From assembly GCA_022844565.1 (NCBI GenBank), contig JALHLK010000036.1, forward strand, positions 10,289 to 54,387: a stretch of DNA of 44,099 nucleotides. Reading direction: 5' to 3'. This document shows, piece by piece, positions 19,221-36,647 of the stretch. The position numbers and the translations under genes were made by a program. Numbering within the stretch: the stretch's first letter is position 1; each line of letters opens with the position of its first letter. The stretch is from Saprospiraceae bacterium (lineage in GTDB: Bacteria; Bacteroidota; Bacteroidia; Chitinophagales; Saprospiraceae). The notes under the pieces were generated by a model. That model did no database searches and was not told the origin of the DNA. It saw only the letters and a program-made list of their open reading frames with translations.

Positions 19221-19650
19221 CTATTTTATTATACAAGGAGAGAGACATACGGATGTAAGAGGTAGCATGTCATTTGCCAATCGTTTTGATATGTCTGCTG
19301 TACGTAGACATTATATCATTACAAGTTATGACAGTCACACTATAAGGGCTTGGCAAGGGCATTCACTAGAATGTAAGTGGATGAAGTGTATAGAAGGCAG
19401 TTTTACCATCAATTTAGTAAAACCAGTAGTTATTCATGATCCTTTAGGTACTGAAATGATTGATGTCATAAAATTAAACGCCCATAAGGGAGATGTTTTA
19501 TTTATACCTGGTGGATATTTTACGGGCATTAAATCAGATGAAGATAAAGGATCGTTACTTGTTTTTTCTAATCTGTTATTGGAGGAATCTAAACATGACG
19601 ACTTCAGAAAAGAATCTGATTTTTGGATATTCAAAACTGCTGAGATATGA
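19213..19650 (+). CDS. RmlC/WxcM-like cupin protein within the FucNAc gene set
   Basis: A 145-aa single cupin domain. Seen: GERHTDVRGSMSFAN, TIRAWQGHSLECKWMKCIEG (about 44-63) and GDVLFIPGGYFTGI, which match RmlC-like and WxcM/FdtA-like sugar epimerases or ketoisomerases. It lies between the CapE-type and CapF-type genes and overlaps both (8 bp and 4 bp), so it probably acts on the same 4-keto-6-deoxy sugar or a derivative. The classical CapEFG route does not need such an enzyme since CapF has its own cupin domain, so its exact role is unclear. Confidence 0.75.
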   Translation: MNSYFIIQGERHTDVRGSMSFANRFDMSAVRRHYIITSYDSHTIRAWQGHSLECKWMKCIEGSFTINLVKPVVIHDPLGTEMIDVIKLNAHKGDVLFIPGGYFTGIKSDEDKGSLLVFSNLLLEESKHDDFRKESDFWIFKTAEI

Positions 19651-20753
19651 AAATCGGGATTACTGGTTCCAATGGTTTTGTAGGCTTACATTTAACCAAT
19701 TATCTGAATCTTAAAGAGGATTTAGAAATTATCCCATTCGATAGAAGTTTTTTTAATGATGAAAGTAGCATGGATAATTTTGTGCGTGCTACGGACACAA
19801 TTGTGCACTTAGCAGGGCTCAATCGGCATGCTTCACCTGAAGTAATGTATGATACCAATGTGGGCTTATGTACCAAACTGACAGAAGCTTGTATCAGGTC
19901 AAATGTTACACCTCATATTATTTTTTCATCTTCCACACAAGAAGAAGAAAATACCATTTATGGCAACTCCAAAAAGGATGGAAGAAAAGTGCTTGAAGAA
20001 TGGGCATTAGAATATAATGCAAAAGTGACGGGAGCAATTATTCCCAATGTTTTTGGTCCATTCGGAGTACCGTTTTATAATTCAGTGGTTGCTACATTCT
20101 GTCACCAAATAGCCCATGGAGAAACCCCCTCTATCATACAAGATAAACCGTTGAAAATCATTTATATTAATGATTTGATACGAAGAATGTTCGACCTAAT
20201 TTGTAATCCCCAAGCAGGTAGAATAGAGATACCTCACCAATACAATATCGCTGTCTCGGAAATTTTATCGAAGTTACTTTCATACCAACACGATTACTTA
20301 GTAAAAGGTATAATTCCTAAACTTTCTGATCCATTGGAATTAGATTTGTTTAATACATTCAGATGTTATATCCCGTTCGATCATTACCCAGTTCCTTTTA
20401 AATTAAACACAGATGATCGAGGCACTTTTGTAGAGATTACCAGATCGAATACGTCAGGCCAGTTTTCTTTTTCTACCACCAATCCAGGTATTACTCGTGG
20501 CAATCATTTTCATACGCGAAAAGCAGAAAGATTTGCAGTCATCAAAGGGAAAGCAAAAATATCGCTGAGGCGAATAGGTACTATCGAAGTTATAGACTAT
20601 TTTGTGGATGGTAGTGCGCCTGCTTATGTCGATATGCCTATATGGCACACACACAATATTACCAATATAGGAGAAGATGAGTTAGTTACTTTGTTTTGGA
20701 TAAATGAGCCATTTAATGCTGAAGATCCAGATACCTATTTTGTAAATGTTTAA
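19647..20753 (+). CDS. wbjC: Bifunctional SDR-cupin reductase/epimerase (WbjC/CapF)
   Basis: A 368-aa two-domain enzyme. The N-terminal SDR has GITGSNGFVG (4-13), FSSSTQ (93-98) and Y105/K109 (TIYGNSKKDGRKVLEEW). The C-terminal cupin (about 250-368) has TRGNHFHTRKAERFAVIKGK and MPIWHTHNITNIGEDELVT. In CapF the cupin performs C3 epimerisation and the SDR reduces the 4-ketone to give UDP-6-deoxy-L-talose-type amino sugar. It overlaps the cupin gene by 4 bp and is 15 bp upstream of WbjD. Confidence 0.93.
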   Translation: MKIGITGSNGFVGLHLTNYLNLKEDLEIIPFDRSFFNDESSMDNFVRATDTIVHLAGLNRHASPEVMYDTNVGLCTKLTEACIRSNVTPHIIFSSSTQEEENTIYGNSKKDGRKVLEEWALEYNAKVTGAIIPNVFGPFGVPFYNSVVATFCHQIAHGETPSIIQDKPLKIIYINDLIRRMFDLICNPQAGRIEIPHQYNIAVSEILSKLLSYQHDYLVKGIIPKLSDPLELDLFNTFRCYIPFDHYPVPFKLNTDDRGTFVEITRSNTSGQFSFSTTNPGITRGNHFHTRKAERFAVIKGKAKISLRRIGTIEVIDYFVDGSAPAYVDMPIWHTHNITNIGEDELVTLFWINEPFNAEDPDTYFVNV

Positions 20754-20768
20754 TATTATTTAAAATAC

Positions 20769-21917
20769 ATGAAGAAGCTAAAGGTATTAACAGTTGTAGG
20801 TACAAGACCTGAGATTATCAGACTATCTCGAGTTATGGCCAAACTGGAAGAAAGTCCTACCATAGACCATATCACAGTCCACACGGGTCAGAATTATGAT
20901 TATGAGTTAAATGAAGTATTTTATGAAGACTTAGGTATTCGTAAACCTGATTATTTTCTCAATGCAGCTGGTGCGACAGCAACAGCTACCATTGGTCAGA
21001 TATTGATAAATATCGATCCCATATTGGAAGAAGTTAAACCAGATGCATTTTTAGTGCTTGGAGATACCAATAGTTGTTTGTGTGCCATTCCTGCAAAGAA
21101 GAGACACATACCTATTTTCCATATGGAAGCGGGTAACAGATGTTTTGATCAGCGAGTACCAGAAGAAACCAACCGTAAGATTGTAGATCATATCTCAGAT
21201 ATCAATTTGACTTACTCAGACATAGCTAGAGAATATCTATTGCGCGAGGGGCTCAACCCGGACAGAGTCATCAAGACAGGCTCGCCTATGATGGAGGTAT
21301 TACACCATTATGAAGCCAAAATCTCCGATTCTGACATTGTATCAAAATTGGATCTGACATCACAACAATATTTTGTCGTTTCTGCCCATAGAGAAGAAAA
21401 TATCAGCAGCGACAAAAACTTTTTTGGCTTATTGAATGCCTTATATGAAATAGGAGAAAAATATGGCCATCCAATCATTGTCAGCACCCATCCGCGCACA
21501 AGGAAAAGACTAGAACAAATGGAAGGCAAGCCAGGATCACCCAAACTTCACCCATTGATACAATGGCAAAAACCAATGGGGTTTAGTGATTATAACGCAC
21601 TACAAGTTCATGCTTTTGCAGTGCTTTCGGATAGTGGTACGATTAGTGAAGAGTCTTCTATTTTAAATTTTAGAGCGCTCAATATACGTGAGGCCCACGA
21701 AAGACCAGAGGCGATGGAAGAAGCATCTGTGATGATGACTGGATTGAATACGGATCGAATCCTCCAAGGCCTAGAGCAATTGCAATATCAAAAAATAGGG
21801 AAAGATAGAACATTTAGACAGGTTGCAGACTATAGTATACCCAATGTAAGTGATAAAGTAGTAAGGATCATTCTGAGTTACACAGATTATATCAAAAGAG
21901 TTGTGTGGCATGAATGA
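20769..21917 (+). CDS. wbjD: UDP-N-acetyl-L-fucosamine synthase, 2-epimerase (WbjD/CapG/FnlC)
   Basis: A 382-aa non-hydrolysing UDP-GlcNAc 2-epimerase-family enzyme. Seen: TVVGTRPEIIRLSRVMAKL (9-27), HTGQNYDYELNEVFYEDL, VLGDTNSCL, HMEAGNRCFDQRVPEETNRK, SAHREENIS and DSGTISEESSIL. The ELNEVFYEDLGIRKPDYFLN and MEAGNRCFDQRVPEE text is that of WbjD/FnlC rather than WecB. It finishes UDP-L-FucNAc from the CapF product by C2 epimerisation. The stop overlaps the following deacetylase start (ATG at 21910). Confidence 0.93.
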   Translation: MKKLKVLTVVGTRPEIIRLSRVMAKLEESPTIDHITVHTGQNYDYELNEVFYEDLGIRKPDYFLNAAGATATATIGQILINIDPILEEVKPDAFLVLGDTNSCLCAIPAKKRHIPIFHMEAGNRCFDQRVPEETNRKIVDHISDINLTYSDIAREYLLREGLNPDRVIKTGSPMMEVLHHYEAKISDSDIVSKLDLTSQQYFVVSAHREENISSDKNFFGLLNALYEIGEKYGHPIIVSTHPRTRKRLEQMEGKPGSPKLHPLIQWQKPMGFSDYNALQVHAFAVLSDSGTISEESSILNFRALNIREAHERPEAMEEASVMMTGLNTDRILQGLEQLQYQKIGKDRTFRQVADYSIPNVSDKVVRIILSYTDYIKRVVWHE

Positions 21918-23031
21918 ATTCATAGAAAAAGTAAAATATCAAATCGCAAATCTACCTGGATGGCGTACCAAGAGGAAATTAGTGGTCATTGAAAGCGATG
22001 ATTGGGGGAGCATCAGAATGCCTTCAAGAGAAGTATATGAAACATTGTTGAAAAAAGGTTTTCCATTAAATAAGACAAGCTATAATAGATTTGATTCTCT
22101 TGCAAGTGAAGATGATTTAGCAGCCTTATTTGAAGTGCTTTATTCAATCAAAGACATGAATGGTAATTCTGTCAAAATAACTGCAAATACTATAGTTGCT
22201 AATCCAGATTTTGACAAAATTGAACAAAGTGGGTTTACTGAATATCATTATGAACCTTTCACGGAAACTTTAAAAAAATATCCAAATCACTCAAATTCAT
22301 TTTCGATATGGCAGGAAGGCATTAATGCAGGTATTTTTAGGCCGCAATTCCATGGTCGAGAGCATATTAATGTACAAAGGTGGATGAGAGCTTTAAGTGA
22401 TGAAAATTCGATAGCAAGGGAAATTTTTAAATACAAAATGTATGACTTAAGTATTGGATTAGCAAGGTCAAAAGATGCTTTTATGGAGGCCCTTCAAATC
22501 GATTCAGAGGATGATTTTGGTTTTCAATCAGCTTATATAAATGAAGGTTTAGCACTTTTCAAAAAAATATTTAATTATAGTTCCAAGACTTTTATAGCTC
22601 CATGTTATGTATGGCACAGTAATCTCAATAATTCACTTAAGTCTAATGGTGTTGAAGCTTTTCAGGGATCCTGGTATCAACTTGAACCAAATGTTAGTGA
22701 CAACAGTCTGAAGAAAATCTTTCATTATACAGGTCAAAAAAATGATCTTGATCAAATCTATTTGGCCAGAAATGTATTTTTTGAGCCTTCAGAAATAAAG
22801 ATAAAAGATTGGAATAAGGAAGTCATTAATAAAATGAAACTAGCCTTCAGAACTGGTAAGCCTGCAATAATTCAATCTCATAGAATGAATTTTATAGGTA
22901 GTATTGACAAAGAAAATCGTGATAAAAATCTGACTATGTTTTCAGAATTACTAAACTTAATAATTAAAACCTGGCCAGATGTTGAATTTGTTGCTAGTGA
23001 TGAATTGGCTGATTTGATTCTGAGTTACTAA
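21910..23031 (+). CDS. Polysaccharide deacetylase-like (NodB-type) protein, copy 1
   Basis: About 373 aa from the ATG at 21910, preferred over the TTG at 21901 because ATG overlaps the upstream stop in the usual way. Seen: VVIESDDWGSIRMPS with the Asp pair of the NodB metal motif (D30/D31) and QFHGREHINV with an HxxxH pair (H148/H152). No signal peptide is present, so it would act in the cytosol, perhaps on a nucleotide sugar or lipid-linked sugar. It shares most of its length with a second copy at 31646 (AGWKT, ESDDWGSVRMPS, NPDFDKI, EYHYEPFT, SREHLNV). Substrate unknown. Confidence 0.8.
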   Translation: MNEFIEKVKYQIANLPGWRTKRKLVVIESDDWGSIRMPSREVYETLLKKGFPLNKTSYNRFDSLASEDDLAALFEVLYSIKDMNGNSVKITANTIVANPDFDKIEQSGFTEYHYEPFTETLKKYPNHSNSFSIWQEGINAGIFRPQFHGREHINVQRWMRALSDENSIAREIFKYKMYDLSIGLARSKDAFMEALQIDSEDDFGFQSAYINEGLALFKKIFNYSSKTFIAPCYVWHSNLNNSLKSNGVEAFQGSWYQLEPNVSDNSLKKIFHYTGQKNDLDQIYLARNVFFEPSEIKIKDWNKEVINKMKLAFRTGKPAIIQSHRMNFIGSIDKENRDKNLTMFSELLNLIIKTWPDVEFVASDELADLILSY

Positions 23032-23164
23032 TTCTTTTGTAAAAGATGATAACTGATTTAAGGTTAATTAATATACAAAAAATTGTAACGCCTGATAGCG
23101 TCACATTTATCCCTAGTCTATTATTTAGCATTGCTTTTAATAAATTTAAATCAAGAATTCTAAA

Positions 23165-24493
23165 GTGAGTACGGACTTTGTACATATTAATACGCTTTTT
23201 CCAGAAATACCTAGAGATTTGGCACATTTGTCAGAGGTGTATGATGATGAAGAGATGCTGTACGAACAAATAAAAAAGATTACAGCAGTTCATTTTACTA
23301 ATAGTTTTATTAGTGCAAAAAAAATTCTCTTAAAACCTAACTGGGTAAAACATAATCGAAACACTAATGACGAGCTTTGTCTTACAACTAATTTTAATTT
23401 TATTTTGGCTTTAGTAAAATTAATTTCTGAACTTTGCCCTTTAAAAATAACCATTGGAGATGCACCTATTCAAGGTTGTGATTGGAATCAATTGCTTCCA
23501 GAAAATTTTCTTGAAAAAATAAATATCATTTCAAAGGCTAGTAATATTCCAATATTTATAAAAGATTTCAGAAGAGTTAAATATGATCCTAGTAAAAATT
23601 TAGTTCAAAACAATTTAATAGAGCTTGATGATTTTGTAATTTTTGATTTAGCGCAAAATAGTTATTTAGAGCCAATTACAGATGATGGCATAAATAAATT
23701 CAGAGTTACTCAGTATGATCCTGATAGATTTATGGAATCTCATAGACCAGGCATGCATAAGTATTGCATTACAAAAGAAATATTTGATGCGGATATTATT
23801 ATTTCCTTACCAAAATTAAAAACTCATCAAAAAGCTGGTATTACTGCGGCCTTAAAAAATATTGTTGGTATAAATGGTGATAAGGATTTTCTACCACACC
23901 ATAGGGTTGGTGGCACTGAAGCGGGAGGTGACAGCTACCCAGGAAAAAATGCAATACGACGACTTGCCGAGTATTTTTACGATAAGTCATATAAAACTCA
24001 GGGGAGTAAATGGTTTAAATTCTGGACTCGGTTAGGTAGTCTAGCATGGATTCTTTCTTTTCCTGGCCAGGATGATCAACACGGGGCTGCATGGCACGGT
24101 AATGATACAGTTTGGAGAATGGTAATGGATTTGAATAAAATAATAACTTTCGGTAAATTTGATGGCACAATACATAATAATCCTGTTCGCGTTCTTTATA
24201 GTTTGGGAGATGGAATAATTGGAGGCCAAGGAGATGGCCCCTTAAATCCAGATCCCTTACCTTTGGGCGTTATTACTTTCACAAATAATTCGGCATGGCA
24301 TGATATATGTGTTTCCGAATTAATGCAATTTGAGCACGAAAAGATTGCATTACTTCGTGCAGGAAAAGAATTTACAAGATCTTTGCAAGTTAACATTGTA
24401 TTAAATAATAGACCAATCCCAATTAGCTATTTAAAACCAGTTTCAATCAAAACGATCCCACCTCCGGGATGGATAAATTTTTTTAACTCATAA
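23165..24493 (+). CDS. DUF362 family protein
   Basis: A 442-aa protein with a GTG start. Diagnostic text: ILLKPNWVKHN, ITIGDAPIQGCDWNQLL, IISLPKLKTHQKAGITAALK and NIVGINGDKDFLPHHRVGG, the core of the DUF362 family. The family is of unknown function; members with a C-terminal ferredoxin part exist, but no CxxCxxC motif is visible here. It stands between a deacetylase-like gene and an ATP-grasp gene, 10 bp from the latter, in a cassette likely to modify a sugar. The 133-bp gap upstream could contain a promoter. Confidence 0.82.
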   Translation: MSTDFVHINTLFPEIPRDLAHLSEVYDDEEMLYEQIKKITAVHFTNSFISAKKILLKPNWVKHNRNTNDELCLTTNFNFILALVKLISELCPLKITIGDAPIQGCDWNQLLPENFLEKINIISKASNIPIFIKDFRRVKYDPSKNLVQNNLIELDDFVIFDLAQNSYLEPITDDGINKFRVTQYDPDRFMESHRPGMHKYCITKEIFDADIIISLPKLKTHQKAGITAALKNIVGINGDKDFLPHHRVGGTEAGGDSYPGKNAIRRLAEYFYDKSYKTQGSKWFKFWTRLGSLAWILSFPGQDDQHGAAWHGNDTVWRMVMDLNKIITFGKFDGTIHNNPVRVLYSLGDGIIGGQGDGPLNPDPLPLGVITFTNNSAWHDICVSELMQFEHEKIALLRAGKEFTRSLQVNIVLNNRPIPISYLKPVSIKTIPPPGWINFFNS

Positions 24494-24503
24494 ATAGACC
24501 AGA

Positions 24504-25526
24504 ATGATAGCCATACACAATGGAAAAGATGGATTTCACCCTGAATGGGTAAAATATTCCAAAGAAAATAACATTCCGCATAAAATTGTTGATTGTTATT
24601 CAAATAATCTAATTCAACAATTAGAAGATTGTCATGCACTTATGTGGCATTTTTCTCAGAACAATCCCAAAGATATTCTTATTAGTAAACAAATACTTTT
24701 TTCGTTACAGCAATCAGGAATGAAAGTGTTTCCGGACTTCAACACCATGTGGCATTTTGATGATAAATTAGGTCAAAAATATTTGTTGGAAAGTTTAAAA
24801 TTGCCTTTTGTTCAGTCTTATGCTTTTTACACTGCTGAAACAGCGATATCCTGGGCTGAAAAAACTACTTATCCAAAAGTTTTTAAATTGCGTGGTGGAG
24901 CCGGCTCAACCAATGTGAGATTGGTTGAAAATAAGAAAAGTGCAATTTATATTATTAATACAGCTTTTGGGCCCGGTTTTTCTAACTACGATCGTTTAGG
25001 ATCATTTAAAGAATCATGGAGATTATATAAACTGTCTAAAATTTCTATAATTACGCTTTTAAAGTCTGCTCTCCGAATGATTATACAACCTAAATTCTCA
25101 GAAATAATGGGTATGGAAAGAGGCTATGTATATTTTCAGGATTATATCCCAGGAAATGACAGCGACATAAGAGTGGTTGTCATAGCGGACAAAGCTTTTG
25201 CTATTAAAAGACTTGTCAGAAAGGGTGATTTCAGAGCATCAGGAAGTGGTCATATTCTTTATGAAAAAGCGCTTTTTGATGAAGTTATCATAAAATTAGC
25301 ATTTAATGCATCACAAAAGTTGAAAAGCCAATGTATTGCCTTTGATTTTGTTTATCAGGATGGAAATCCGCTGATAATTGAAATAAGTTATGGGTTTGCA
25401 CCACATGGTTACAGAGAATGTGTTGGATATTGGGATTCAGATATGAATTGGTTCGAAGGGAAGTTTGACCCTTATTCTTGGATGTTGGATTTGATGTTAG
25501 ATGAGAAATACATTGACACAAAATAA
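24504..25526 (+). CDS. ATP-grasp ligase, RimK-like
   Basis: A 340-aa protein. Seen: a lysine/glycine loop PKVFKLRGGAGSTNVRLVE, the ATP-grasp central part YVYFQDYIPGNDSDIRVVVI, RKGDFRASGSGHILYEK, and the metal-binding end CIAFDFVYQDGNPLIIEISY. ATP-grasp enzymes join a carboxylate to an amine through an acyl-phosphate. Here it may attach an amino acid or another acyl group to a sugar amine exposed by the nearby deacetylase; that is inference. It overlaps the next glycosyltransferase gene by 26 bp. A long insert (LYKLSKISIITLLKSALRM) lies in the middle. Confidence 0.82.
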   Translation: MIAIHNGKDGFHPEWVKYSKENNIPHKIVDCYSNNLIQQLEDCHALMWHFSQNNPKDILISKQILFSLQQSGMKVFPDFNTMWHFDDKLGQKYLLESLKLPFVQSYAFYTAETAISWAEKTTYPKVFKLRGGAGSTNVRLVENKKSAIYIINTAFGPGFSNYDRLGSFKESWRLYKLSKISIITLLKSALRMIIQPKFSEIMGMERGYVYFQDYIPGNDSDIRVVVIADKAFAIKRLVRKGDFRASGSGHILYEKALFDEVIIKLAFNASQKLKSQCIAFDFVYQDGNPLIIEISYGFAPHGYRECVGYWDSDMNWFEGKFDPYSWMLDLMLDEKYIDTK

Positions 25527-26607
25527 TCATATATGTTTTATTTCAGCTGGGTTAGCTGGAGGAGGAATGGAACGATCCTTAACAAATATAGCCAATTATG
25601 CGGCATCGAATGGGCACAAAGTGACCATTTTAAATCTTTTCACTACAGAGATCTTTTTTGACCTTCATCCGGATATAGTAGTAATATGGCCAACACTCGA
25701 CAGGAACAAAATGCATAGGTTGGTATATGCTATAAGATTGTTGCCATTTATTAGAAAGATTATAAAGGGCATTAAACCGACCACAATTTTAAGTTTCGGA
25801 GAGTGGTTTAATGGCTATGTTCTATTGGCAACCAGATTTTTAAATATACCTGTCTTTATTACAGATAGAATGGGTCCTCTTTTGAACCTAGGCTTTTTAC
25901 TAGAAACAGCTAGAAAAATCATGTATAAATATGCGACAGGGATTATTGCCCAGACGTCCATAGCTGCAAATATATTATATCAAAACACTAAAAATAAAAA
26001 TATTCGGGTCATTCCCAATGCATTAATTGCGATTGATTCAAACGTGTCAGTTAAAAAAAATCAAATTGTAACTGTTGGGCGATTGACCAGAGAAAAAGGG
26101 CATGATGTACTAATTAACGCCTTTGCATTGCTTCCTAAAAATGACTGGACTTTACATATTGTGGGTGATGGGAACAGAAGAAAATTTCTCAATGATTTAG
26201 TTGCACACCACAATATCAAAGGAAAGGTAATTTTTTATGGACACCTTAAGGAGTTTAGTGCAATCCTAGGCAAATCTGATATTTTTGTATTACCCTCTTT
26301 TTACGAAGGATTTCCCAATGCTCTGATTGAAGCCATGTCTGTACCTTTAGCTTGTATCAGTAGCAATTGTGTTGCTGGGCCATCTGACATCATCGAACAT
26401 GGTGAAAATGGATTATTATTTGAAACAGGGAATATAGGTGAATTAGCAAAATGTCTAGAAAGATTAATAAATGACCATGACGAAAGACAAAGACTGGCCA
26501 CAAAAGCGATAAAAATACGAGAGCAATTAGATTTCAATACGATAGCAAGTCAGTATATAAAGTTTATTCTTTCGGAATTTTCAGACAAAGATAAAATTAA
26601 AGCATGA
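25501..26607 (+). CDS. GT4 glycosyltransferase A
   Basis: A 368-aa GT-B fold, family GT4. N-terminal acceptor loop GLAGGGMERSLTNIANYAA, linker VTVGRLTREKGHDVLINAF and the EX7E motif in SFYEGFPNALIEAMSVP followed by AGPSDIIEHGENGLLF. The text is closest to enzymes adding N-acetyl-galactosamine or glucosamine units, but donor and linkage cannot be read. Its start lies 26 bp inside the ATP-grasp gene and its end overlaps the next gene by 4 bp. Confidence 0.88.
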   Translation: MRNTLTQNNHICFISAGLAGGGMERSLTNIANYAASNGHKVTILNLFTTEIFFDLHPDIVVIWPTLDRNKMHRLVYAIRLLPFIRKIIKGIKPTTILSFGEWFNGYVLLATRFLNIPVFITDRMGPLLNLGFLLETARKIMYKYATGIIAQTSIAANILYQNTKNKNIRVIPNALIAIDSNVSVKKNQIVTVGRLTREKGHDVLINAFALLPKNDWTLHIVGDGNRRKFLNDLVAHHNIKGKVIFYGHLKEFSAILGKSDIFVLPSFYEGFPNALIEAMSVPLACISSNCVAGPSDIIEHGENGLLFETGNIGELAKCLERLINDHDERQRLATKAIKIREQLDFNTIASQYIKFILSEFSDKDKIKA

Positions 26608-27821
26608 AAGTATTACAGATAGATGTTGCTGCAAATGTGGGTAGTACTGGGAAAATTACCGAGCAAATTGGAGTTAAAGTAATTAAAAATAATGGAGAAA
26701 GTACGATTGCTTTTGGACGTTATGAAAATATAAGCCAATCGAGCAAAATAAAGATAGGCAACGAGATAGAACAGGCACAGCATTTATTATTAACTCGATT
26801 TTTTGATAAACATGGATTAGGGTCAATAAATGGAACTAAAATATTTGTAGAAAAAATTAAATTGCTTAATCCTGATATTATTCATCTGCACCAAATCCAT
26901 GGCTACTTCATTAATATTGAAATTCTTTTTAAGTTTTTAGCACAAATCAAAAAACCGGTAATATGGACTTTACATGATTGTTGGCCTTTTACAGGTCATT
27001 GCTGTCATTATGCCAGAGTCGAATGTGTTAAATGGCAAACAGGATGCTACTCATGTCCTTTAACAAAGTATTACCCTCAAAGCTTGTTTTATGATAATTC
27101 TAAAGAAAACTATGCTATTAAAAAGGAGCTATTTAATGGAGTTAAAGATATAACATTAGTGCCTGTCTCAGATTGGTTGGCAGGAGAAGTTACCAAATCT
27201 TTTCTTAAAGAACTTCCTATTCACACAATTCACAATGGAGTGGATATTCATAAATTTCAATTCACTGACCCAAGTTCTTTAGTCGAAAAATATCTTTTGA
27301 CGAATAAAAAAGTTATTTTAGGTGTTGCCAGTCCATGGAGTGATTTAAAAGGCTTATCTGCCTTCGTTGCGTTATCAAGTATGATGGAGAGCCATATTAA
27401 AATAATTTTAATAGGATTAACTGAAAGTCAAATTAAAGGATTACCTCCAAACATCATTGGTATTACCAGACTAAACAATCCGAATGACTTGGCTATGTAT
27501 TATTCATTAGCAGATGTTTTTGTAAATCCCTCTATTGCAGAATCCTTTGGATTAGTAACCGTTGAAGCAATGGCCTGCGGAACACCTGTGGTAGGTTATA
27601 ATGTGACAGCTACTCCAGAACTGGTTCAGAAGGGCACTGGATATATTGTGGAAAAGGGAGATGTTAATGGATTATTTCAAATGATAAATATCATCTTGAA
27701 AAATGGTAAAGACTTATATAGTGAAGCATGCAGAAATCTTGTTCTGGAGAAATATAATCAAGAAATACAATACGAAAAATACATTACTTTATACAACAGC
27801 AAAATAAAAAAAGTGAGCTAA
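26604..27821 (+). CDS. GT4 glycosyltransferase B
   Basis: A 405-aa GT4 enzyme. The N-terminus (LQIDVAANVGSTGKITEQIG) and DIIHLHQIHGYFINIEIL followed by TLHDCWPFTGHCCHYARVEC are typical of WcaC/WbgY-like transferases, which often carry this Cys-rich stretch. The C-terminal EX7E motif is SIAESFGLVTVEAMACGTPVVGYN. It would add one sugar of the repeat unit. It overlaps GT4 A by 4 bp (ATGA) and is followed after 32 bp, which include short TCAAAAA repeats, by the amidotransferase gene. Confidence 0.87.
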   Translation: MKVLQIDVAANVGSTGKITEQIGVKVIKNNGESTIAFGRYENISQSSKIKIGNEIEQAQHLLLTRFFDKHGLGSINGTKIFVEKIKLLNPDIIHLHQIHGYFINIEILFKFLAQIKKPVIWTLHDCWPFTGHCCHYARVECVKWQTGCYSCPLTKYYPQSLFYDNSKENYAIKKELFNGVKDITLVPVSDWLAGEVTKSFLKELPIHTIHNGVDIHKFQFTDPSSLVEKYLLTNKKVILGVASPWSDLKGLSAFVALSSMMESHIKIILIGLTESQIKGLPPNIIGITRLNNPNDLAMYYSLADVFVNPSIAESFGLVTVEAMACGTPVVGYNVTATPELVQKGTGYIVEKGDVNGLFQMINIILKNGKDLYSEACRNLVLEKYNQEIQYEKYITLYNSKIKKVS

Positions 27822-27853
27822 AATTCTTTAGAGTCAAAAATCAAAAATCAAAA

Positions 27854-28986
27854 ATGTCATATCAAATTTGTATAAAAACCATTATGGACACATCAGACCC
27901 GAATATTGTGTTCGACGAAGAAGGTATCAGTGATTACTATCATAACTTTCAAAAAAACATATTGCCGTTATGGCATACTGATGAGAGAGGCCACACCGAA
28001 CTTATGAAGTGTGCAGAAAAGATAAAAGCTGAAGGAAAAGGCAAAGATTTTGACTGCATAATAGGAATTAGTGGGGGTTGGATAGTTCTTATCTCACCTA
28101 TGTAGCTAAAGAAATCATGGGTATCCGACCACTTTTGTTTCATGTCGATGCGGGATGGAATACCGATAAGGCAGTAGGTAATATTGAAAAGCTTTGTAAT
28201 GGCTTAGGTCTGGAGTTGTTTACTGAAGTAATCAACTGGGAAGAAATGAAAGATCTGCAGGTTGCCTTCCTTAAGGCACAAACACCTGGTCAGGACGGAC
28301 CTCAGGATATTGCCTTTTTTTCAGCTATGTATAAATTTGCAAGAAAGCATAAAATTAAATATGTTCTTACAGGAGCCAATTATTCTACCGAATGCTGTAA
28401 AGAACCGGAGGAATGGGGTGCTTATCCTGGAATAGATAAGATATTTGTTATGGATATCTATAATAAATTTGGGAAAGGTAAATTAAAAACATTCCCGATT
28501 CTGGATATTCTTGAATACAAGGTGTGGTATCAGGTATTTTTGGGTATGAAGGTTTTAAAACCCCTCAACTTAGTGCCTTACATTAAAAAGGATGCTGAAA
28601 ATTTGCTATTTGAAAAATTTGGGTGGGAAAAATTTCAACACAAACATCATGAATCGAGATTTACAAGGTTTTATGAAGACTATTGGTTACCCAGGAAATT
28701 TGGATTTGAAAAAAGAAGAGCTCATTTTTCTAGTCTTATTTTGACTGGTCAAATGACAAGAGAAGAAGCCCTAGATAGAATATCAAGGCCAGAATTAGAC
28801 GAGCAAACCCTTACAAACGAGTTTGAGTATGTGGCTCATAAACTCGATCTTTCAGTAGATCAATTACAGAAATTATTTGAAGGAGAAAATAAAACCTTTA
28901 AGGACTATCGAAATAAAAGACATATTATCAATTTGGGGGGAAAGGTATTGACTATGTTAAAACTCGAAAAGCGATTAATAAGATGA
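27854..28986 (+). pseudogene. N-acetyl sugar amidotransferase (WbpG/PseA type), frameshifted in its PP-loop
   Basis: Two frames form one protein of about 377 aa, the normal length. The first ends DFDCIIGISGG then WIVLISPM; the second begins DSSYLTYVAKEIMGIRPLLFHVDAGWN and runs to the C-terminus. Adding one T near 28078 (GGGGGTTGGATAG to GGGGGTTTGGATAG) restores GISGGLDSSYL, the PP-loop ATP-binding motif. These enzymes use ammonia delivered by HisH/HisF-like partners to make an acetamidino group on a sugar, as in Pseudomonas WbpG and Campylobacter PseA/PtmG. Both partners follow at once. The error next to a run of five G may be a sequencing mistake, and the true gene may be intact. Confidence 0.9.
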
Positions 28987-29597
28987 TAGGTATCATTGAT
29001 TACGGTTTGGGAAATATCAAAGCTTTTGAGAACATATTTAAAAGACTTCATATTCCTGTAAGGATTTTACGCAATCAAGATGACTTCAATATGATTGACA
29101 AACTGATTCTTCCTGGTGTCGGAGCTTTTGATCATGCTATGTTGACTTTCAATAATTCAGGTATGCGGGAGATCACAGAAAAAATGGTACTGGAACAAAA
29201 AATGCCAGTCATTGGTATTTGTGTCGGTATGCAGATGTTGGCAAGAAAAAGTGATGAAGGTTTATTGCCTGGGTTGGGTTGGTTAGATGGAGTCGTTAAT
29301 AAATTTGACGAATCCAAGATTAAATTTGACACACACCTTCCCCACATGGGCTGGAATGATGTGGAAGTAAATAGAAACCACCCACTTTTTATAAATTTTC
29401 CTGAAAATCCAAAATTTTATTTCCTTCATTCTTATTATTTTGAATGTATAGATTCATCAAATATAATCGGAGAAACATACTATGGTGGAAAATTCACTTG
29501 TGCTGTAGCGCGTGATAGTATATTTGGGGTTCAGTTTCATCCAGAAAAAAGTCATAATTATGGGGTCAAATTATTAGAAAATTTTTCAAAGTTATAA
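28983..29597 (+). CDS. hisH: HisH-like glutamine amidotransferase for sugar amidination
   Basis: A 204-aa class I glutamine amidotransferase. The triad is present: C80 (VIGICVGMQML), H186 and E188 (GVQFHPEKS), with N-terminal IGIIDYGLGNIKAFENIF and LPGVGAFDHAM. It releases ammonia from glutamine for the sugar amidotransferase upstream, through the HisF-like partner. Not likely to serve histidine synthesis, because no other his genes are nearby and its partner lacks a key residue. It overlaps the upstream gene by 4 bp and abuts the next with no gap. Confidence 0.9.
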   Translation: MIGIIDYGLGNIKAFENIFKRLHIPVRILRNQDDFNMIDKLILPGVGAFDHAMLTFNNSGMREITEKMVLEQKMPVIGICVGMQMLARKSDEGLLPGLGWLDGVVNKFDESKIKFDTHLPHMGWNDVEVNRNHPLFINFPENPKFYFLHSYYFECIDSSNIIGETYYGGKFTCAVARDSIFGVQFHPEKSHNYGVKLLENFSKL

Positions 29598-30392
29598 ATG
29601 TTACGACCAAGAATAATTCCTTGTTTACTCATTCATGATAAAGGATTAGTTAAAACTGTACGATTCAAAGATCCGAAGTATGTAGGGGATCCCATTAATG
29701 CCGTTAGAATTTTTAATGAAAAACAGGCCGATGAATTGATGGTACTTGATATTGATGCAACAGTTCAAGCATATGAACCTGATTATGTATTAATTGAAAA
29801 ACTGGCTTCGGAATGCAGAATGCCGTTATGCTATGGAGGGGGGATTAAGACAGTAGAGCAGGCACAAAAAATATTTTCACTAGGGGTAGAAAAGGTGGCT
29901 TTAAGCTCTTCTGCAATTGAAAATCCTGAACTAATATCTAAGATAGCAGAAAGGGTAGGAACACAAAGTGTAGTTGTGGTACTTGATGTTAAGAAGAAAT
30001 TTTTAGGGGGATATGAAGTGGTAATTCATAATGGAAAAAAATCAACTGCAAAGAATCCGATTGAAATGGCAACTCTGTTTCAAAAGTTGGGAGCTGGAGA
30101 AATAGTTATAAATTCAGTAGATCATGACGGCGATATGAAAGGATATGATCTGGAGTTGGCTGGAAAAGTGCGGAAACAAATTACCGTTCCTCTCACCATA
30201 TTAGGCGGTGCAGGAAGTATGGATGATATAGGAAAATTGATTTCAAATTTTGGCATTGTAGGTGCATCTGCGGGGAGTATATTTGTATTCAGAGGCGTTT
30301 ACAAAGCAGTATTAATAAGTTATCCAGAACCGGAAGTAAAAGATGAATTATTGAAAAGATATTATGTAGATTTTTACAAACAAATGGGTTAA
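29598..30392 (+). CDS. hisF: HisF-like partner protein for sugar amidination
   Basis: A 264-aa (beta-alpha)8 barrel of the HisF family. It begins MLRPRIIPCLLIHDKG, where histidine-type HisF has CLDV: the catalytic Asp11 is Leu here. Asp130 (VVLDVK) and the DHDGDMKGYDLEL, GGAGSMDDI stretches remain. Loss of Asp11 should abolish imidazoleglycerol-phosphate cyclase activity but keep the ammonia channel, as in HisF2 proteins of LPS loci such as that of Pseudomonas. So it should channel ammonia to the amidotransferase. Starts one base after the HisH-like stop. Confidence 0.9.
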   Translation: MLRPRIIPCLLIHDKGLVKTVRFKDPKYVGDPINAVRIFNEKQADELMVLDIDATVQAYEPDYVLIEKLASECRMPLCYGGGIKTVEQAQKIFSLGVEKVALSSSAIENPELISKIAERVGTQSVVVVLDVKKKFLGGYEVVIHNGKKSTAKNPIEMATLFQKLGAGEIVINSVDHDGDMKGYDLELAGKVRKQITVPLTILGGAGSMDDIGKLISNFGIVGASAGSIFVFRGVYKAVLISYPEPEVKDELLKRYYVDFYKQMG

Positions 30393-30423
30393 ACCAAATT
30401 TTTGCAATAAAAGTAGTATTGAT

Positions 30424-31656
30424 TTGAGCGACAAAAAATTAAATATTTTATTCATTTCGTTGGTGATCATAAAAAATTTGGAGAAACGGGGTATTTATCC
30501 AGATTTGATAAATTATTTTATCAGTCAAGGCCATCATGTCACCATACTCTCTCCAGTGGAAAGAAGAGAGAAAAACTCTGGCGAAATTATTGAAGGAGAA
30601 GGGTATACTAATATAAGATATAAAACCTTAAACAACACAAAAACTAATTATGTTGAAAAACTACTTTCTACTTTTGTAATTGATTACTTACTCAAACGAG
30701 CCGTTGAAAAATCAGTTAAAAGGCCTATCGATATTGCAGTATATGCCACACCTCCTATTAGCTTGACTCGAACAGTTTCTTTTATAAAACATCGTTTTAA
30801 TATTCCTTGTTATTTATTATTAAAGGATATTTTCCCCGATAATATTGCTGATTTAGGTTTATTATCCAAAAGCTCTATATTTTACAAATACTTTAGGAAA
30901 AAGGAAAAACACCTCTATGCACTTTCAGATTATATAGGTTGTATGTCACCGGCCAATGTGGATTATTTACTTTCAAATAATCCAGAATTGGATCCACAGA
31001 AAGTAGAAGTTAATCCAAACACCATTATGCCCATTGAGCCAATGAAAGACGGTCAAATTATAGCTCAATTAAAATCAAAATATAAGATAAACCCTCAGGC
31101 AAAAGTCTTTTTTTATGGAGGTAATTTGGGCAAACCACAAATGATAGACTTTCTTATAGAAGTCATGAATGCTCATTTAGAGAATAAAGATGTTCATTTT
31201 TTAATTGTTGGTAATGGCACTGAATACAATAAGTTGAATAAGTGGATAAGTAAAAAAAAACCAAGTAATGTTACCTTATTATCTTTTGTGCCAAAAGCTG
31301 AATATGACATCTTGGTAAGTTTGGGCGATGTTGGCCTAGTGCTTCTTGACAATAGATTTAAAATACCAAACTTCCCCAATAGGATTTTATCTTACATGGA
31401 AAATTATATGCCTGTTTTATCCGCGACTGACATTCATACGGACATTGGCACCATAGCCCAAAACAATGGGTTTGGATTTTGGTGTGAGTCAGGAAACTTG
31501 GCAGCCATGAACGGGTTAATAAATACTTTTGTCCGTATGGATGATGATACTTTTACAGCTATGGGTGAAACAGGAAATAAATTTCTAAAAGACCATTATT
31601 TAATTGACAGATCATATGCTGCAATTGTAAGTAAGATACCTGGTTTTGCTCAATAA
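30424..31656 (+). CDS. wbuB: WbuB-like GT4 glycosyltransferase (probable FucNAc transferase)
   Basis: A 410-aa GT4 enzyme. Seen: ATPPISLTRTVSFIKHRFNI, LLLKDIFPDNIADLGLL, YIGCMSPANVDYLL and FFYGGNLGKPQ, hallmarks of WbuB proteins, which in E. coli O26 transfer N-acetyl-L-fucosamine. That fits the CapEFG genes at 18204-21917. The TTG start is assigned from the longest conserved N-terminus; the stop is overlapped by 11 bp by the next gene. Donor specificity is by family and context only. Confidence 0.85.
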   Translation: MSDKKLNILFISLVIIKNLEKRGIYPDLINYFISQGHHVTILSPVERREKNSGEIIEGEGYTNIRYKTLNNTKTNYVEKLLSTFVIDYLLKRAVEKSVKRPIDIAVYATPPISLTRTVSFIKHRFNIPCYLLLKDIFPDNIADLGLLSKSSIFYKYFRKKEKHLYALSDYIGCMSPANVDYLLSNNPELDPQKVEVNPNTIMPIEPMKDGQIIAQLKSKYKINPQAKVFFYGGNLGKPQMIDFLIEVMNAHLENKDVHFLIVGNGTEYNKLNKWISKKKPSNVTLLSFVPKAEYDILVSLGDVGLVLLDNRFKIPNFPNRILSYMENYMPVLSATDIHTDIGTIAQNNGFGFWCESGNLAAMNGLINTFVRMDDDTFTAMGETGNKFLKDHYLIDRSYAAIVSKIPGFAQ

Positions 31657-32758
31657 TTTAAAAACAAAATTTGCCACTTGGGTCAAGGGATCAATAGGTT
31701 GGAAGACAGATCGAAAAATAGTTGTTTTTGAGTCTGATGACTGGGGCAGTGTAAGGATGCCTTCTCAAAAAGCATATGATTCTTTAGTGTCAAAAGGTAT
31801 AAAATTAGATAGTGCGGGTGGTTGTTTATTCAATAAGTATGATACATTAGCCAACGAAGACGACCTAACTGCCTTGTTCGATGTTTTAAATTCTGTACGC
31901 GACAAAAATAATAATCCGGCGGTTTTTACAGCCGTAAGTGTGGTTGCAAATCCTGATTTTGACAAAATAGCATCATCAGGATTCCAAGAATATCATTACG
32001 AACCATTCACAAGAACTTTAGAAAAATACCAAAGTCATAATCGCACCTTTGATCTATGGAAGGAAGGGATAACAAAAAAGCTATTTATACCTCAATCACA
32101 CAGTCGTGAACATCTGAATGTATTGCTTTGGATGGAAAACCTAAGAAAAGGTGACAATCAAACTAGAGTTGCTTTTGAACACGGAATGTGGGGATTTGAT
32201 AGAACTGACAATAAACCATCATATCAAGTAGCCTATAGTATTAAATCAATGGACGATGTCCATCAACAAGCGTTAATCATAAAAGATGGTTTAGACCTTT
32301 TTGAAAAGCTATTTGGGTTTAAGTCATCCTTTTTTGTACCTCCCAACGGTTTACTCCACCCATCCTTGGAAAAAGTTACTTATGAAATGGGCGTTTCATC
32401 ATTGTATGGTTCTATTATTTGTAATGTACCTACACCAGAATATAGATCAAAAAAGACAATAAGGTATCTTGGACAATCGAATAGGTATGGGCAAAAATAT
32501 GTTTTAAGAAACTGTTTATTCGAGCCTAATGATCCTTCCAATGATTGGTTGAATGTGGCCTTAAAAGATATTCAAACAGCATTTAAATACAACAAACCAG
32601 CAATACTTGGGCCCCATAGGAAAAATTTTATAGGAGGAATAAATGAAAGCAACAGAACAAACAGTTTGCTTGTGTTGAAAAATCTATTGAAAGAAATTCT
32701 AAAAAAATGGCCAGATGTAGAATTTATGTCAACCAACGAATTGTTTAAATTAATGTAA
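31646..32758 (+). CDS. Polysaccharide deacetylase-like (NodB-type) protein, copy 2
   Basis: A 370-aa paralogue of the protein at 21910. The metal site text VVFESDDWGSVRMPS (D31/D32) and QSHSREHLNV (H152/H156) is preserved, as are VVANPDFDKIASSGFQEY and HYEPFTRTLEKY. TTG start overlapping the WbuB-like stop by 11 bp. No signal peptide. It is followed 6 bp later by an ATP-grasp gene, echoing the deacetylase-ATP-grasp order at 21910-25526, but here without DUF362 between. Substrate unknown; N-deacetylation of a HexNAc residue is the expected reaction type. Confidence 0.8.
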   Translation: MLNNLKTKFATWVKGSIGWKTDRKIVVFESDDWGSVRMPSQKAYDSLVSKGIKLDSAGGCLFNKYDTLANEDDLTALFDVLNSVRDKNNNPAVFTAVSVVANPDFDKIASSGFQEYHYEPFTRTLEKYQSHNRTFDLWKEGITKKLFIPQSHSREHLNVLLWMENLRKGDNQTRVAFEHGMWGFDRTDNKPSYQVAYSIKSMDDVHQQALIIKDGLDLFEKLFGFKSSFFVPPNGLLHPSLEKVTYEMGVSSLYGSIICNVPTPEYRSKKTIRYLGQSNRYGQKYVLRNCLFEPNDPSNDWLNVALKDIQTAFKYNKPAILGPHRKNFIGGINESNRTNSLLVLKNLLKEILKKWPDVEFMSTNELFKLM

Positions 32759-32764
32759 CGACTT

Positions 32765-33790
32765 ATGTACTTAAAAAGGATTATTTATCTTATATATTAT
32801 TTTAAAAAATTAGATTGGGAGTTACTTAATAAATTTTTAAAATACGTGAATGAAGCCAGTAATATTCCAATTTGGAAATTATGGTATAAATCAATTTCAA
32901 ATTCTTTGAAGTATAATATTTCATTACTTGAATATTATCAATTCCAGTTTTGGGAGAAAAATGAAAGTCAAAAGTCAGAATGGGCAGGGACAGGATATAT
33001 GTACGAATATCAATTATACATGAACCCTATTAAAGAAAGGGTAATTCTTGATGACAAAACAAAGTTTAAAGAGTATTACAAAGACTTTATTATTCATTTA
33101 TGTTTTGATTTAAATGATCTTGAAAATAAAGAAAATGCTGTTAAACTTTTAAATAATACTTCAAGAAAACTTGTTTTTAAAGTGGCTAATGGAAAATGTG
33201 GTAAGCAAGTAATAATTAAAGATGCATCACAGTTTAACCCTGAATCCCTTGTTGCATTCATGAAGACAGAAAAGTTTGATTTAGTGGAAGAATTTATAAT
33301 CCAACACCCTTTACTATCAGAATTATCACCTTCAGCAGTCAATACTATCAGAATTTTTACTCAGCTTGATTCTAATAATAATGTCCATCTTTTGGGAAGT
33401 AGGCTCAGAATATCTGTAAATTCACTTGTTGACAATATGGCTGCTGGCAATATGGCAGCACTTATTGACGAAAAAACAGGTGTGATTTCTGGTAAAGCTG
33501 TCTATAGCGATATTACAAAACCTAATGTAGATTTTCACCCAATAACGAATATTAGAATTAATGGCTTTATTATACCATTTTGGCAAGAATGTCTGGATCT
33601 TGTAACAAAGGCAGCATTGAAACATCCAAAAAATAAATCAATTGGATGGGATATTGCTGTAACTCCTGTGGGTCCAGAACTCATTGAAGGAAATCATGAT
33701 TGGTGTAAACTTTTATGGCAATTACCAGCAAAAAGAGGATTAAAATCTATGTTAGATAAATTTTACTTAGAGGCAAAAAAGATAAATTAA
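32765..33790 (+). CDS. Sugar-transfer-associated ATP-grasp protein
   Basis: A 341-aa protein of the ATPgrasp_ST group often found in capsule loci. Seen: LVFKVANGKCGKQVIIKDA, VEEFIIQHPLLSELSPSAVN, TIRIFTQLD, GSRLRISVNSLVDNMAAGNM, AALIDEKTGVI and the metal-binding end GWDIAVTPVGPELIEGNHDW. The reaction is not known; ligation of an amino acid or hydroxy acid to a sugar is the usual guess. It begins 6 bp after the deacetylase copy 2 and ends 7 bp before the membrane protein gene. Confidence 0.85.
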   Translation: MYLKRIIYLIYYFKKLDWELLNKFLKYVNEASNIPIWKLWYKSISNSLKYNISLLEYYQFQFWEKNESQKSEWAGTGYMYEYQLYMNPIKERVILDDKTKFKEYYKDFIIHLCFDLNDLENKENAVKLLNNTSRKLVFKVANGKCGKQVIIKDASQFNPESLVAFMKTEKFDLVEEFIIQHPLLSELSPSAVNTIRIFTQLDSNNNVHLLGSRLRISVNSLVDNMAAGNMAALIDEKTGVISGKAVYSDITKPNVDFHPITNIRINGFIIPFWQECLDLVTKAALKHPKNKSIGWDIAVTPVGPELIEGNHDWCKLLWQLPAKRGLKSMLDKFYLEAKKIN

Positions 33791-34787: not shown

Positions 34788-35861
34788 ATGAATCAAAAAC
34801 TAAACATCTTAATCACAGGCGTTGGTGGTCCTACCCCAAGGTCCTTTGCCAGAGCCATCAAGGAAATTGGTAATTATAAAAAGTATAGCATTATTGCTAC
34901 CGATATCCATCCGCACGCTATTGGATTATACCAAAAAGAAATGTTTGACATCAGCGTCATAACTCCTAAATCCAATGCTCGTGACTATTGGCCTTTTATG
35001 GAAGAGGTCATTGCAAAATATAAGATTGACATAGCGGTTATATTACCAGAGCAGGAAGTATTAGCATGGAGTGAAAGACAAGCTTATGGTGTATTACCCT
35101 GCAAAGCATTGATACCACCAAAAGCAGCCGTAGATAAAATGTTGGATAAAGGTATTCTTACATCTGCATTGAAAGAATCAGGATTGGTGCCAAAATCTGT
35201 CCTCATTGATACAAAATCTGAAGACTTAAAAAGCCAAACGGAATCAGTATTGAGCTATCCTTATTGGATAAGGTCTGCTACAGGTTCGTCAGGACTTGGG
35301 TCGTATAAAGTTGAATCTTTTGATGATCTCATAAAATGGACCACTATCAATAAGGGTATAGATAACTTTATAGCTAGTGCCTATTTACCCGGTAGAAACT
35401 TGGCTTGTAAAATGTTATACTACGATGGAAAATTGGTGAGAGCTGCTTGTGCAGAGCGAGTAAATTATATCATGGCCAAGGTGGCTCCTTCTGGTATAAC
35501 AGGCAATACATCTTTTGGTCGCTTAATCAACGATGAAAAGATTTTTAACGTCGCGAATGAGGCAATGAATATCATGTTTGAAATTACAGGGGCTGATAAA
35601 CATGGATTTTTTACTGTAGATTTAAAAGAAGATCAGGATGGTACACCGATGATCACAGAAATAAATGTTAGACATGTAGCATTTACCCAATGTTTTGCTA
35701 AAGGAGGAGCTAACTTGTGTGAAGATACGATTAGATTATTAGATAATGATAATACGTTTAACCATGATTTTCACCATTATCAATTTGAAGAAGATTTAAT
35801 ATTTTTGAGGGATGTGGATGAAAGACCGATTTTAATGAAAGAAAGTGATTTATTAAAGTAA
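34788..35861 (+). CDS. Carbamoyl-phosphate-synthase-like ATP-grasp protein
   Basis: A 357-aa ATP-grasp protein. N-terminal Rossmann part ILITGVGGPTPRSFARAIKE and IIATDIHPHAIGLYQ; ATP-grasp part YPYWIRSATGSSGLGSYKVE, FIASAYLPGRNLACKMLYYD and metal-binding DGTPMITEINVRHVAFTQ. This is the third ATP-grasp gene in the locus and is different in type from the other two. It could form an amide between an amino acid and a uronic acid, which would fit the dehydrogenase at 2177; that is inference. Confidence 0.85.
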   Translation: MNQKLNILITGVGGPTPRSFARAIKEIGNYKKYSIIATDIHPHAIGLYQKEMFDISVITPKSNARDYWPFMEEVIAKYKIDIAVILPEQEVLAWSERQAYGVLPCKALIPPKAAVDKMLDKGILTSALKESGLVPKSVLIDTKSEDLKSQTESVLSYPYWIRSATGSSGLGSYKVESFDDLIKWTTINKGIDNFIASAYLPGRNLACKMLYYDGKLVRAACAERVNYIMAKVAPSGITGNTSFGRLINDEKIFNVANEAMNIMFEITGADKHGFFTVDLKEDQDGTPMITEINVRHVAFTQCFAKGGANLCEDTIRLLDNDNTFNHDFHHYQFEEDLIFLRDVDERPILMKESDLLK

Positions 35862-35936: not shown

Positions 35937-36647
35937 TTGTATTCAACATTTATAAAACCAGTCTTTGACATTGTACCTGCATTCATAGCGACTGTACTTT
36001 TACTCCCTTTTATACTAATTATTGTTTTGGTATTAAAGTTTACCGGAGAAGGGGAAATATTTTATGTGCAAGAAAGAGTAGGTCATAAAAACAAACCATT
36101 CGGCATTCTAAAATTTGCCACCATGCTTAAAAACAGCCTCAACATAGGCAGTAAAACCATTACAGTGAGGAATGATCCAAGAATCACCCCCATGGGTAAA
36201 TGGCTACGCATCACCAAACTTAATGAATTGCCTCAGATCATCAATGTACTCAAAGGAGATATGTCGATCGTGGGCCCAAGACCTTTATTGGTAACCAGTT
36301 TTCAAAAATATGTTCCTGAAGTACGAGAAGTGATTTATCAAAACAGACCAGGTATCACAGGTATCGGCTCTTTAGTATTCCGTGATGAAGAAAAACTGGT
36401 CAGTATGGTAAAACAAAAAGGCAGAGACCCCATGGAATATTACAAGCAACATATCTACCCCTATAAAGGTGCTCTCGAATTATGGTATCACCAAAATATT
36501 TCTTTTAAAACTGATTTTATTATATTGATGCTTACCTTCTGGTCTATTATAAATAAAAACTCGAACGTAGTTTTTAAACTTTTCAAAACCTTACCTCCCA
36601 AACCAACCGAACTTACCATTAAAGGGATTCAAAACCCTTCTTTCTAG
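35937..36647 (+). CDS. Initiating sugar-phosphate transferase A (PglC/WcaJ family, short form)
   Basis: A 236-aa monotopic membrane transferase. One N-terminal re-entrant helix (VFDIVPAFIATVLLLPFILI), then GEIFYVQERVGHKNKPFGIL, TKLNELPQIINVLKGDMSIV, GPRPLL, and the catalytic Asp-Glu pair in FRDEEKL. It loads a sugar-1-phosphate onto undecaprenyl phosphate at the start of the repeat unit. The length matches the PglC short form that lacks the five-helix domain of WcaJ. TTG start. A close paralogue lies at 40744, so this locus has two initiating enzymes. Confidence 0.9.
   Translation: MYSTFIKPVFDIVPAFIATVLLLPFILIIVLVLKFTGEGEIFYVQERVGHKNKPFGILKFATMLKNSLNIGSKTITVRNDPRITPMGKWLRITKLNELPQIINVLKGDMSIVGPRPLLVTSFQKYVPEVREVIYQNRPGITGIGSLVFRDEEKLVSMVKQKGRDPMEYYKQHIYPYKGALELWYHQNISFKTDFIILMLTFWSIINKNSNVVFKLFKTLPPKPTELTIKGIQNPSF

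Follow-up and report, generated by a model that had tools for sequence, protein, structure and literature searches.

Published work on Porphyromonas gingivalis and Tannerella forsythia describes, for their Wbp/Vim pathway, a putative CE4 deacetylase, VimE, that is proposed to free a C-2 amine, and a second protein, VimA, portrayed as N-acetyltransferase/FemAB-like, that is proposed to attach Ser or Gly, while the asparagine-synthase-type WbpS makes a uronamide (PMC7468200; the same account in PMC8003790). Here we analyse a stretch of 44,099 nucleotides from a Saprospiraceae bacterium (contig JALHLK010000036.1, positions 10,289 to 54,387 of the forward strand; hereafter the window), in which two paralogous NodB-fold proteins, DAC1 and DAC2, are each followed by an ATP-grasp gene. 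The best explanation of this arrangement, which we hold with about even confidence, is cytosolic N-deacetylation by the two DACs followed by ATP-dependent acylation of the freed amines.

The genes of both modules lie on the + strand. DAC1, a clade A NodB-fold putative N-deacetylase placed by its open reading frame (ORF), its paralogy, an AlphaFold2 model and its position in the tree, runs from 21901 (TTG start) or 21910 (ATG start) to 23031. It is followed by a DUF362 protein (23165–24493; PF04015, E 1.8e-21) in a slot that other loci give to a CapA/MslH-like protein, by AGA, a RimK/LysX/ArgX-like ATP-grasp ligase that partners clade A DACs (24504–25526; RimK PF08443, E 1.6e-7), and by two GT4 glycosyltransferases recognised by Pfam (25501–26607 and 26604–27821). 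A further Pfam-assigned GT4 gene (30424–31656) stands directly upstream of DAC2, the clade B putative N-deacetylase (31646–32758; ORF, paralogy and tree), and DAC2 in turn precedes AGST, a PF14397 sugar-transfer associated ATP-grasp that partners clade B DACs (32765–33790; E 2.5e-45, model positions 5–275 of 278). The two DACs share 44% identity over 359 amino acids (E 3e-104). This two-module plan, A-DUF362-AGA-GT4 and GT4-B-AGST with an initiating transferase further on, recurs in other loci. The original prediction, made from the letters and their ORFs, had already pointed to paralogous NodB-like proteins at 21910 and 31646, an ATP-grasp gene after each, the DUF362 gene and the nearby GT4 genes, and all of these are borne out by the ORFs, the Pfam matches and the NodB-like predicted fold. 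It had also read the arrangement as one cassette used twice, and this does not stand: BLAST detects no significant similarity between the two ATP-grasp proteins, 24504 and 32765 (best E 0.79), and the partners are clade-specific. Therefore, the cassette was not simply duplicated, and a chemistry "performed twice" is better taken to mean that two ancient paralogues, whose ligases are not the same, carry out distinct reactions.

Neither DAC1 nor DAC2 is named by a family model of Pfam or NCBIfam, and a sequence search of DAC1 against the Protein Data Bank (PDB) gives two chance-level matches only (E 1.1 and 2.3). The AlphaFold2 model of DAC1 (pLDDT 88.3, pTM 0.89) contains a NodB-type barrel, and its top PDB fold matches are HP0310 (E 1.0e-6, TM-score by query 0.46) and ArnD (1.6e-5), with GH57 enzymes lower down and a heparan sulfate N-deacetylase at rank 35 (E 4.3e-3). 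Across a non-redundant set of 172 DAC sequences, gaps ignored, D33, D34, H151, H155 and H327 (DAC1 numbering from 21901) are invariant in both clades; by the usual motifs, we take these to be the catalytic Asp, the metal-binding Asp-His-His set and the catalytic His. The predicted fold and the invariant residues thus lend support to N-deacetylation by the DACs, which are classed as NodB-fold enzymes and not as CE4 because the CE4 sequence profile PF01522 matches none of the ten members compared with it. By a hydropathy scan, with no signal-peptide predictor run, neither window DAC and only 2 of 172 relatives show a transmembrane-like stretch, and the enzymes are therefore probably cytosolic.

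The same fold comparison is where a different chemistry has to be considered, namely that these proteins cut another bond in a GH57-like or deformylase-like manner. Single DAC members do touch other Pfam models (GH57 PF03065 weakly, in one of ten members, E 1.3e-4; DUF2334, 0.005), the fold matches of DAC1 include GH57 enzymes, and ArnD is a deformylase. The best fold match, however, is of deacetylase type, and the DD pair, the HxxxH motif and the final His are invariant; we consider cleavage of another bond highly improbable.

The DAC family falls into two clades. In a tree of the 172 sequences, one branch separates the two DACs of a locus, A from B, in 57 of 63 two-DAC loci, with 103 sequences in clade A and 69 in clade B. 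In an IQ-TREE analysis of 62 of the 172 sequences, made up of randomly drawn two-DAC loci together with the window and part of the exceptions, the A/B branch has an SH-aLRT value of 99 and all 26 clade B sequences present group together. Among 84 loci (the window and L013–L095, duplicates left in), there are two DAC copies in 59, four in 1 and one in 24, several of the latter being cut by a contig end. A DAC stands directly before another DAC for 1 of 103 clade A and 32 of 69 clade B members; the 33 tandem pairs are spaced by −83 to +192 bases, with 29 of them at −20 to +18. Clade A mostly carries Tyr236, Trp238 and Gln255, and clade B has Asn at 269 (DAC1 numbering). Because both keep the catalytic set, neither clade looks, from its residues, like a dead partner, and this suggests two substrates or two positions and not a redundant copy. 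A member of the classical NodB cluster lies immediately 5′ of the clade B DAC in L054, L089, L161, L166 and L177, and the L025 member of that cluster matches PF01522 and DUF3473. Two loci on one contig (L073 and L075, BNTV01000068.1) are mirror-image matches at its two ends with the same length and score, so that the contig either carries a long inverted repeat or was wrongly assembled.

Gene order around the DACs was scored in 105 distinct loci, using 99 DAC units with three genes on both sides and 300 gene-order shuffles. An amide-former, defined as an ATP-grasp or an asparagine synthase, occurs within three genes downstream of 55 of the 99 units and upstream of 20, and the shuffled downstream fraction has a mean of 0.26 and a maximum of 0.41; the DAC neighbourhood exceeds chance. 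Broken down by type, the downstream and upstream counts are 32 and 4 for AGA, 19 and 1 for CapA-like proteins, 23 and 9 for asparagine synthase and 8 and 2 for DUF362, each above its shuffle maximum. PF14397 types are the very next gene in 15 of 127 DAC units, also above the shuffle maximum (0.08). Hexapeptide and GNAT acyltransferases were tried as a general partner and rejected (18 downstream and 11 upstream of 99; shuffle mean 0.16, maximum 0.26). When partners are scored within three genes by clade, omitting DACs that directly precede another DAC (1 A, 32 B), AGA follows clade A in 33 of 102 cases and clade B in 1 of 37, and AGST follows clade B in 10 of 37 and clade A in 0 of 102, with a related set, AGSTb, after clade A in 7. 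Asparagine synthase, a CapA/MslH-like protein or DUF362 is also found after clade A. In L031, from the cultured environmental strain Chryseosolibacter histidini PWU4, the full module runs DAC-DAC-CapA-like-asparagine synthase-AGA. The predicted model of AGA has an ATP-grasp fold whose top PDB matches are ArgX (1.1e-14), LysX (4.5e-14) and RimK (2.2e-12), and this LysX/ArgX/RimK-like predicted fold supports an acylation by the 24504 protein. Runs of PF14397-like ATP-grasps follow a DAC in two loci, four in L173 and two-AGA-two in L179, perhaps for the stepwise addition of several residues.

These counts bear directly on a simpler possibility, that the DACs leave free amines to give a charged polymer and that the ATP-grasp and other genes are merely frequent neighbours. 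A GT4-type gene directly after 27 of 127 DAC units, including the tandem pair of L013, fits such a polymer. Yet the ligase enrichment is directional and clade-specific and rises above both the shuffles and the upstream side, so that we regard a polymer of free amines as quite unlikely.

The co-occurrence of DAC and AGA across Bacteroidota, which had been set beforehand as the check on the prediction, is strong in the phylum and directional in the loci. Among 395 genomes of the phylum, the window's own included, 23 carry a DAC, 19 carry AGA (E < 1e-140) and 16 carry both (Fisher p 1.8e-20), the strict AGA cut-off having been chosen after the hit list was known; at 1e-40, AGA is in 23 genomes, 17 of them shared with DAC. 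Tallied by hand at the level of 171 genera, DAC is in 13, AGA in 10 and both in 8 (p 3.6e-9). With the window's genome set aside, 22 genomes have a DAC, and in 16 of them an amide-former stands no more than three genes from one. In two others (G283, G287), DUF362 is within three genes and AGA four to six genes on; in G254 the third ATP-grasp type is the only one, four to six genes from the DAC; and in G296, G265 and G313 the fetched stretch around the DAC holds no amide-former. Among 148 genomes of the window's relatives, the family is present in 7, its own included and G049 only distantly. DAC neighbours there include asparagine synthase (G003, G020); G066 has a TupA ATP-grasp and a protein of the hexapeptide type near its DAC, and G059 has a tandem DAC pair followed by GT4 with no adjoining amide-former. 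When genome_contigs (84,980 species) was searched more widely, there were 436 pattern matches and 423 relatives, of which 80 were kept, making 77 distinct loci, to judge by record titles mostly in Bacteroidota and also in Chlorobiota, Ignavibacteria, Balneolota and a few metagenome-assembled genomes with other names. Spread on plasmids was rejected, as a tblastn search of 72,556 plasmid records found no match. The DAC/AGA co-occurrence and the pairing of the two clades are thus well supported.

Whether the ATP-grasps act on the freed amines at all is questioned by the alternative that they use a uronic acid carboxylate and an outside amine, in the manner of the TupA-like domain of Campylobacter Cj1438, with the DACs acting separately. 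Cj1438C joins the C6 carboxylate of GlcA through an amide bond (PMC11800379), and a UDP-sugar dehydrogenase is present both in the window (2177–3463) and in L185, a sugar locus that has AGA and no DAC. Uronate genes might be expected close to AGA if it used such carboxylates. Counted with duplicate loci left in, however, a homologue of the window's dehydrogenase occurs in the fetched stretch of 1 of 46 DAC and AGA loci longer than 15 kb, the window itself, though it could lie elsewhere in the genome; the corresponding number for DAC loci longer than 15 kb that lack AGA is 4 of 43. Use of a uronate carboxylate also leaves the coupling of AGA to clade A unexplained, and we judge it unlikely.

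The slot between the clade A DAC and AGA can hold either of two kinds of protein, which do not occur together in any locus: with duplicate loci left in, a CapA-like protein is in 33 loci, DUF362 in 14 and neither in 69. Against the PDB, the CapA-like profile finds at E < 1e-10 only three entries, all MslH (best 6.6e-29). MslH is described as a calcium-dependent Cα epimerase with the dyads His88/Asp91 and His295/Asp11 (PMC10406935). When the alignment is read by eye, MslH residues Glu44, Asn87, His88, Asp91, His259 and His295 have counterparts in the CapA-like family; unlike MslH, the family has no counterpart of His261, Asp11 falls outside the aligned stretch, and in the window the protein is absent, its slot being filled by DUF362. 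An epimerase role for the CapA-like protein is only a suggestion from these residues, because the residues kept from MslH are also common to phosphoesterases (PMC10406935). DUF362 belongs to Pfam clan CL0471, as does LarA (PMC11770544), and the 23165 protein falls in this clan through its PF04015 match. In two Chlorobiaceae polysaccharide loci, larC, larE and larB follow DUF362 (L048, 11103–15409; L058, 11161–15458, where the larE ORF spans only the C-terminal half of the model), and the DUF362 proteins there are possible nickel-pincer enzymes of polymer synthesis. H221-x9-K231 is invariant in the ten DUF362 sequences of alignment A4, with the spacing of LarA His174/Lys184. A nickel-pincer racemase in the window was rejected on the distribution of LarB, which is absent above cut-off from the window's genome and from 7 of the 9 other DUF362 genomes; it is present in 2 of 10 DUF362 genomes versus 9 of 25 in which the DAC locus, as fetched, has no DUF362. 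A search of the PDB with the DUF362 profile found no relative.

Taken together, our preferred scheme of deacetylation and acylation would run as follows. Before export, two old, co-inherited cytosolic NodB-fold enzymes would each take the N-acetyl group off an acetamido sugar in the repeat unit of the polymer. The substrate would perhaps be a lipid-linked intermediate, proposed solely because the sugar on which ArnD acts is lipid-linked and lies at the inner face. To the amine exposed by the clade A enzyme, DAC1, AGA (24504) would couple a small carboxylic acid, in all likelihood an amino acid or a hydroxy acid, whose stereochemistry may be set by the slot protein (CapA/MslH-like elsewhere, DUF362 here); in loci with an asparagine synthase, that enzyme may amidate a carboxylate. 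The amine exposed by the clade B enzyme, DAC2, would be acylated by the PF14397 ATP-grasp (32765), where present. Computation shows the predicted fold, the invariant residues, the two clades, their specific neighbours and the co-occurrence, while all of the reactions, the lipid linkage of the substrate, the type of acid and the part played by an epimerase are inferred. More tentative, and in our estimate somewhat doubtful, is the broader idea of a widespread, undescribed system for modifying surface polysaccharides in which a co-inherited A and B pair from a new NodB-fold deacetylase family, with its own ATP-grasp for each of two different amines, works with interchangeable epimerases to give D-amino-acyl or D-hydroxy-acyl sugars.

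Several observations weigh against this scheme. On the enzyme side, we found no assayed member of the DAC family; PF01522 polysaccharide-deacetylase models match 0 of 10 aligned members even at E 10, the DAC profile fails to pick up classical NodB proteins, and DAC motif 3 lacks the arginine that is usual in CE4. Six of the 63 two-DAC loci have both copies in clade A, and the A/B branch has a support of 79 in the 172-sequence FastTree. In the synteny analysis, the neighbour classes were derived from the very loci scored, and for this reason the phylum sample weighs more. Within three genes, PF14397 types (14 downstream, 0 upstream of 99) stay within the shuffle range (maximum 0.17), acyltransferases of the hexapeptide and GNAT types are not enriched near DACs, and GT4 comes immediately after 30 of 172 DACs. 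Of the 148 genomes of the window's relatives, 2 have AGA, which is missing from 5 of the 7 with a DAC. There are also phylum genomes with AGA and no DAC, 3 of 395 at the strict threshold, including one that is 77% complete, and 6 at 1e-40. One such AGA, in L184, sits among phosphofructokinase, prolyl oligopeptidase and desaturase genes; another, in L186, follows a CapA-like gene in a fragmentary region, and a six-frame search of L184–L187 found no DAC. A nickel-pincer function for the DUF362 protein is likewise disfavoured in the window.

The remaining genes of the window describe a surface-polysaccharide locus, with NeuB, Wzy-like, fnl-type, WbuX/HisH/HisF, GT4 and initiating transferase functions. 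The NeuB block lies at 7640–12137. On the + strand, Pfam places a Wzy-like polymerase of the EpsG family at 14451–15695, whose homologue cluster is in 48 of 84 loci and immediately 5′ of 38 of 172 DACs, and an initiating sugar-phosphate transferase (Bac_transf) at 35937–36647. Also on this strand, a Pfam-matched block of fnlA/cupin/fnlB/fnlC type at 18204–21917 is probably for UDP-L-FucNAc synthesis. The third ATP-grasp of the original prediction is confirmed as ATP-grasp-like: the carbamoyl-phosphate-synthase-like protein at 34788–35861 (+ strand) has no match in a Pfam scan and an NCBIfam PRK12767-type match below cut-off (E 3.4e-15), and 10 of 84 loci have a member of its homologue cluster in the vicinity of a DAC. 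A WbuX-like amidotransferase gene (TIGR03573, 27758–28986) is split into two frames near the PP-loop, and its syntenic counterparts in L019 and L020 are single 377-aa ORFs; the split is either a natural frameshift or a sequencing error. An 813-aa protein (15744–18185) has no Pfam match, and homologues of about 816 aa are near DACs in 5 of 84 loci, the window included. At the downstream end, the ORF at 42494–43048 is transposase-like with a weak Y1_Tnp match, and that at 38648–39304, which has no Pfam match, is transposase-like by eye only.

If the proposed chemistry is true, genes would serve as a guide by which N-acylated amino sugars could be predicted for the polymers of Bacteroidota, Chlorobiota and Ignavibacteria, it would propose functions for an unnamed deacetylase family and its PF14397, CapA-like and DUF362 neighbours, and it would make cultured strains suited to testing identifiable. 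A comparison with described enzymes helps to place it. With ArnD, HP0310 and other NodB-fold enzymes the DACs have in common the fold and the invariant Asp/His set, but they differ in lacking a polysaccharide-deacetylase Pfam match (ten members) and an NCBIfam match (the two window DACs). AGA shares the fold and the RimK Pfam match of the LysX, ArgX and RimK ligases, but scores far under their NCBIfam cut-offs and is located in sugar loci. The Campylobacter Cj1438C (PMC11800379) likewise forms an amide through an ATP-grasp in a capsule pathway, but acts on a uronate carboxylate and is of the TupA type, which adjoins a DAC in few loci only, L016 among them. The TIGR03019 model matches in 60 of 149 Bacteroidales genomes, only one over cut-off; in 30 fetched TIGR03019-type loci, mostly sub-cut-off matches, a DAC is within about 1.5 kb in none and a classical NodB in 6 (3 strong, 3 weak). 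With 62 of the 73 unclassified DAC neighbours scanned, no FemAB-type family is among the 25 families listed of 74. The nearest published logic is that of Wbp/Vim (PMC7468200), where deacetylation followed by acylation of the freed amine is likewise proposed; there, however, the acylating protein VimA is described as N-acetyltransferase/FemAB-like and not as an ATP-grasp, whereas here the deacetylases are a pair of paralogues and, of 46 DAC and AGA loci, 45 have a fetched stretch free of uronate dehydrogenase. The claim that no system of this exact make-up had been described agrees with the literature searched, in which we recognised no account of it, but the logic of deacetylation and subsequent acylation has already been proposed for VimE and VimA.

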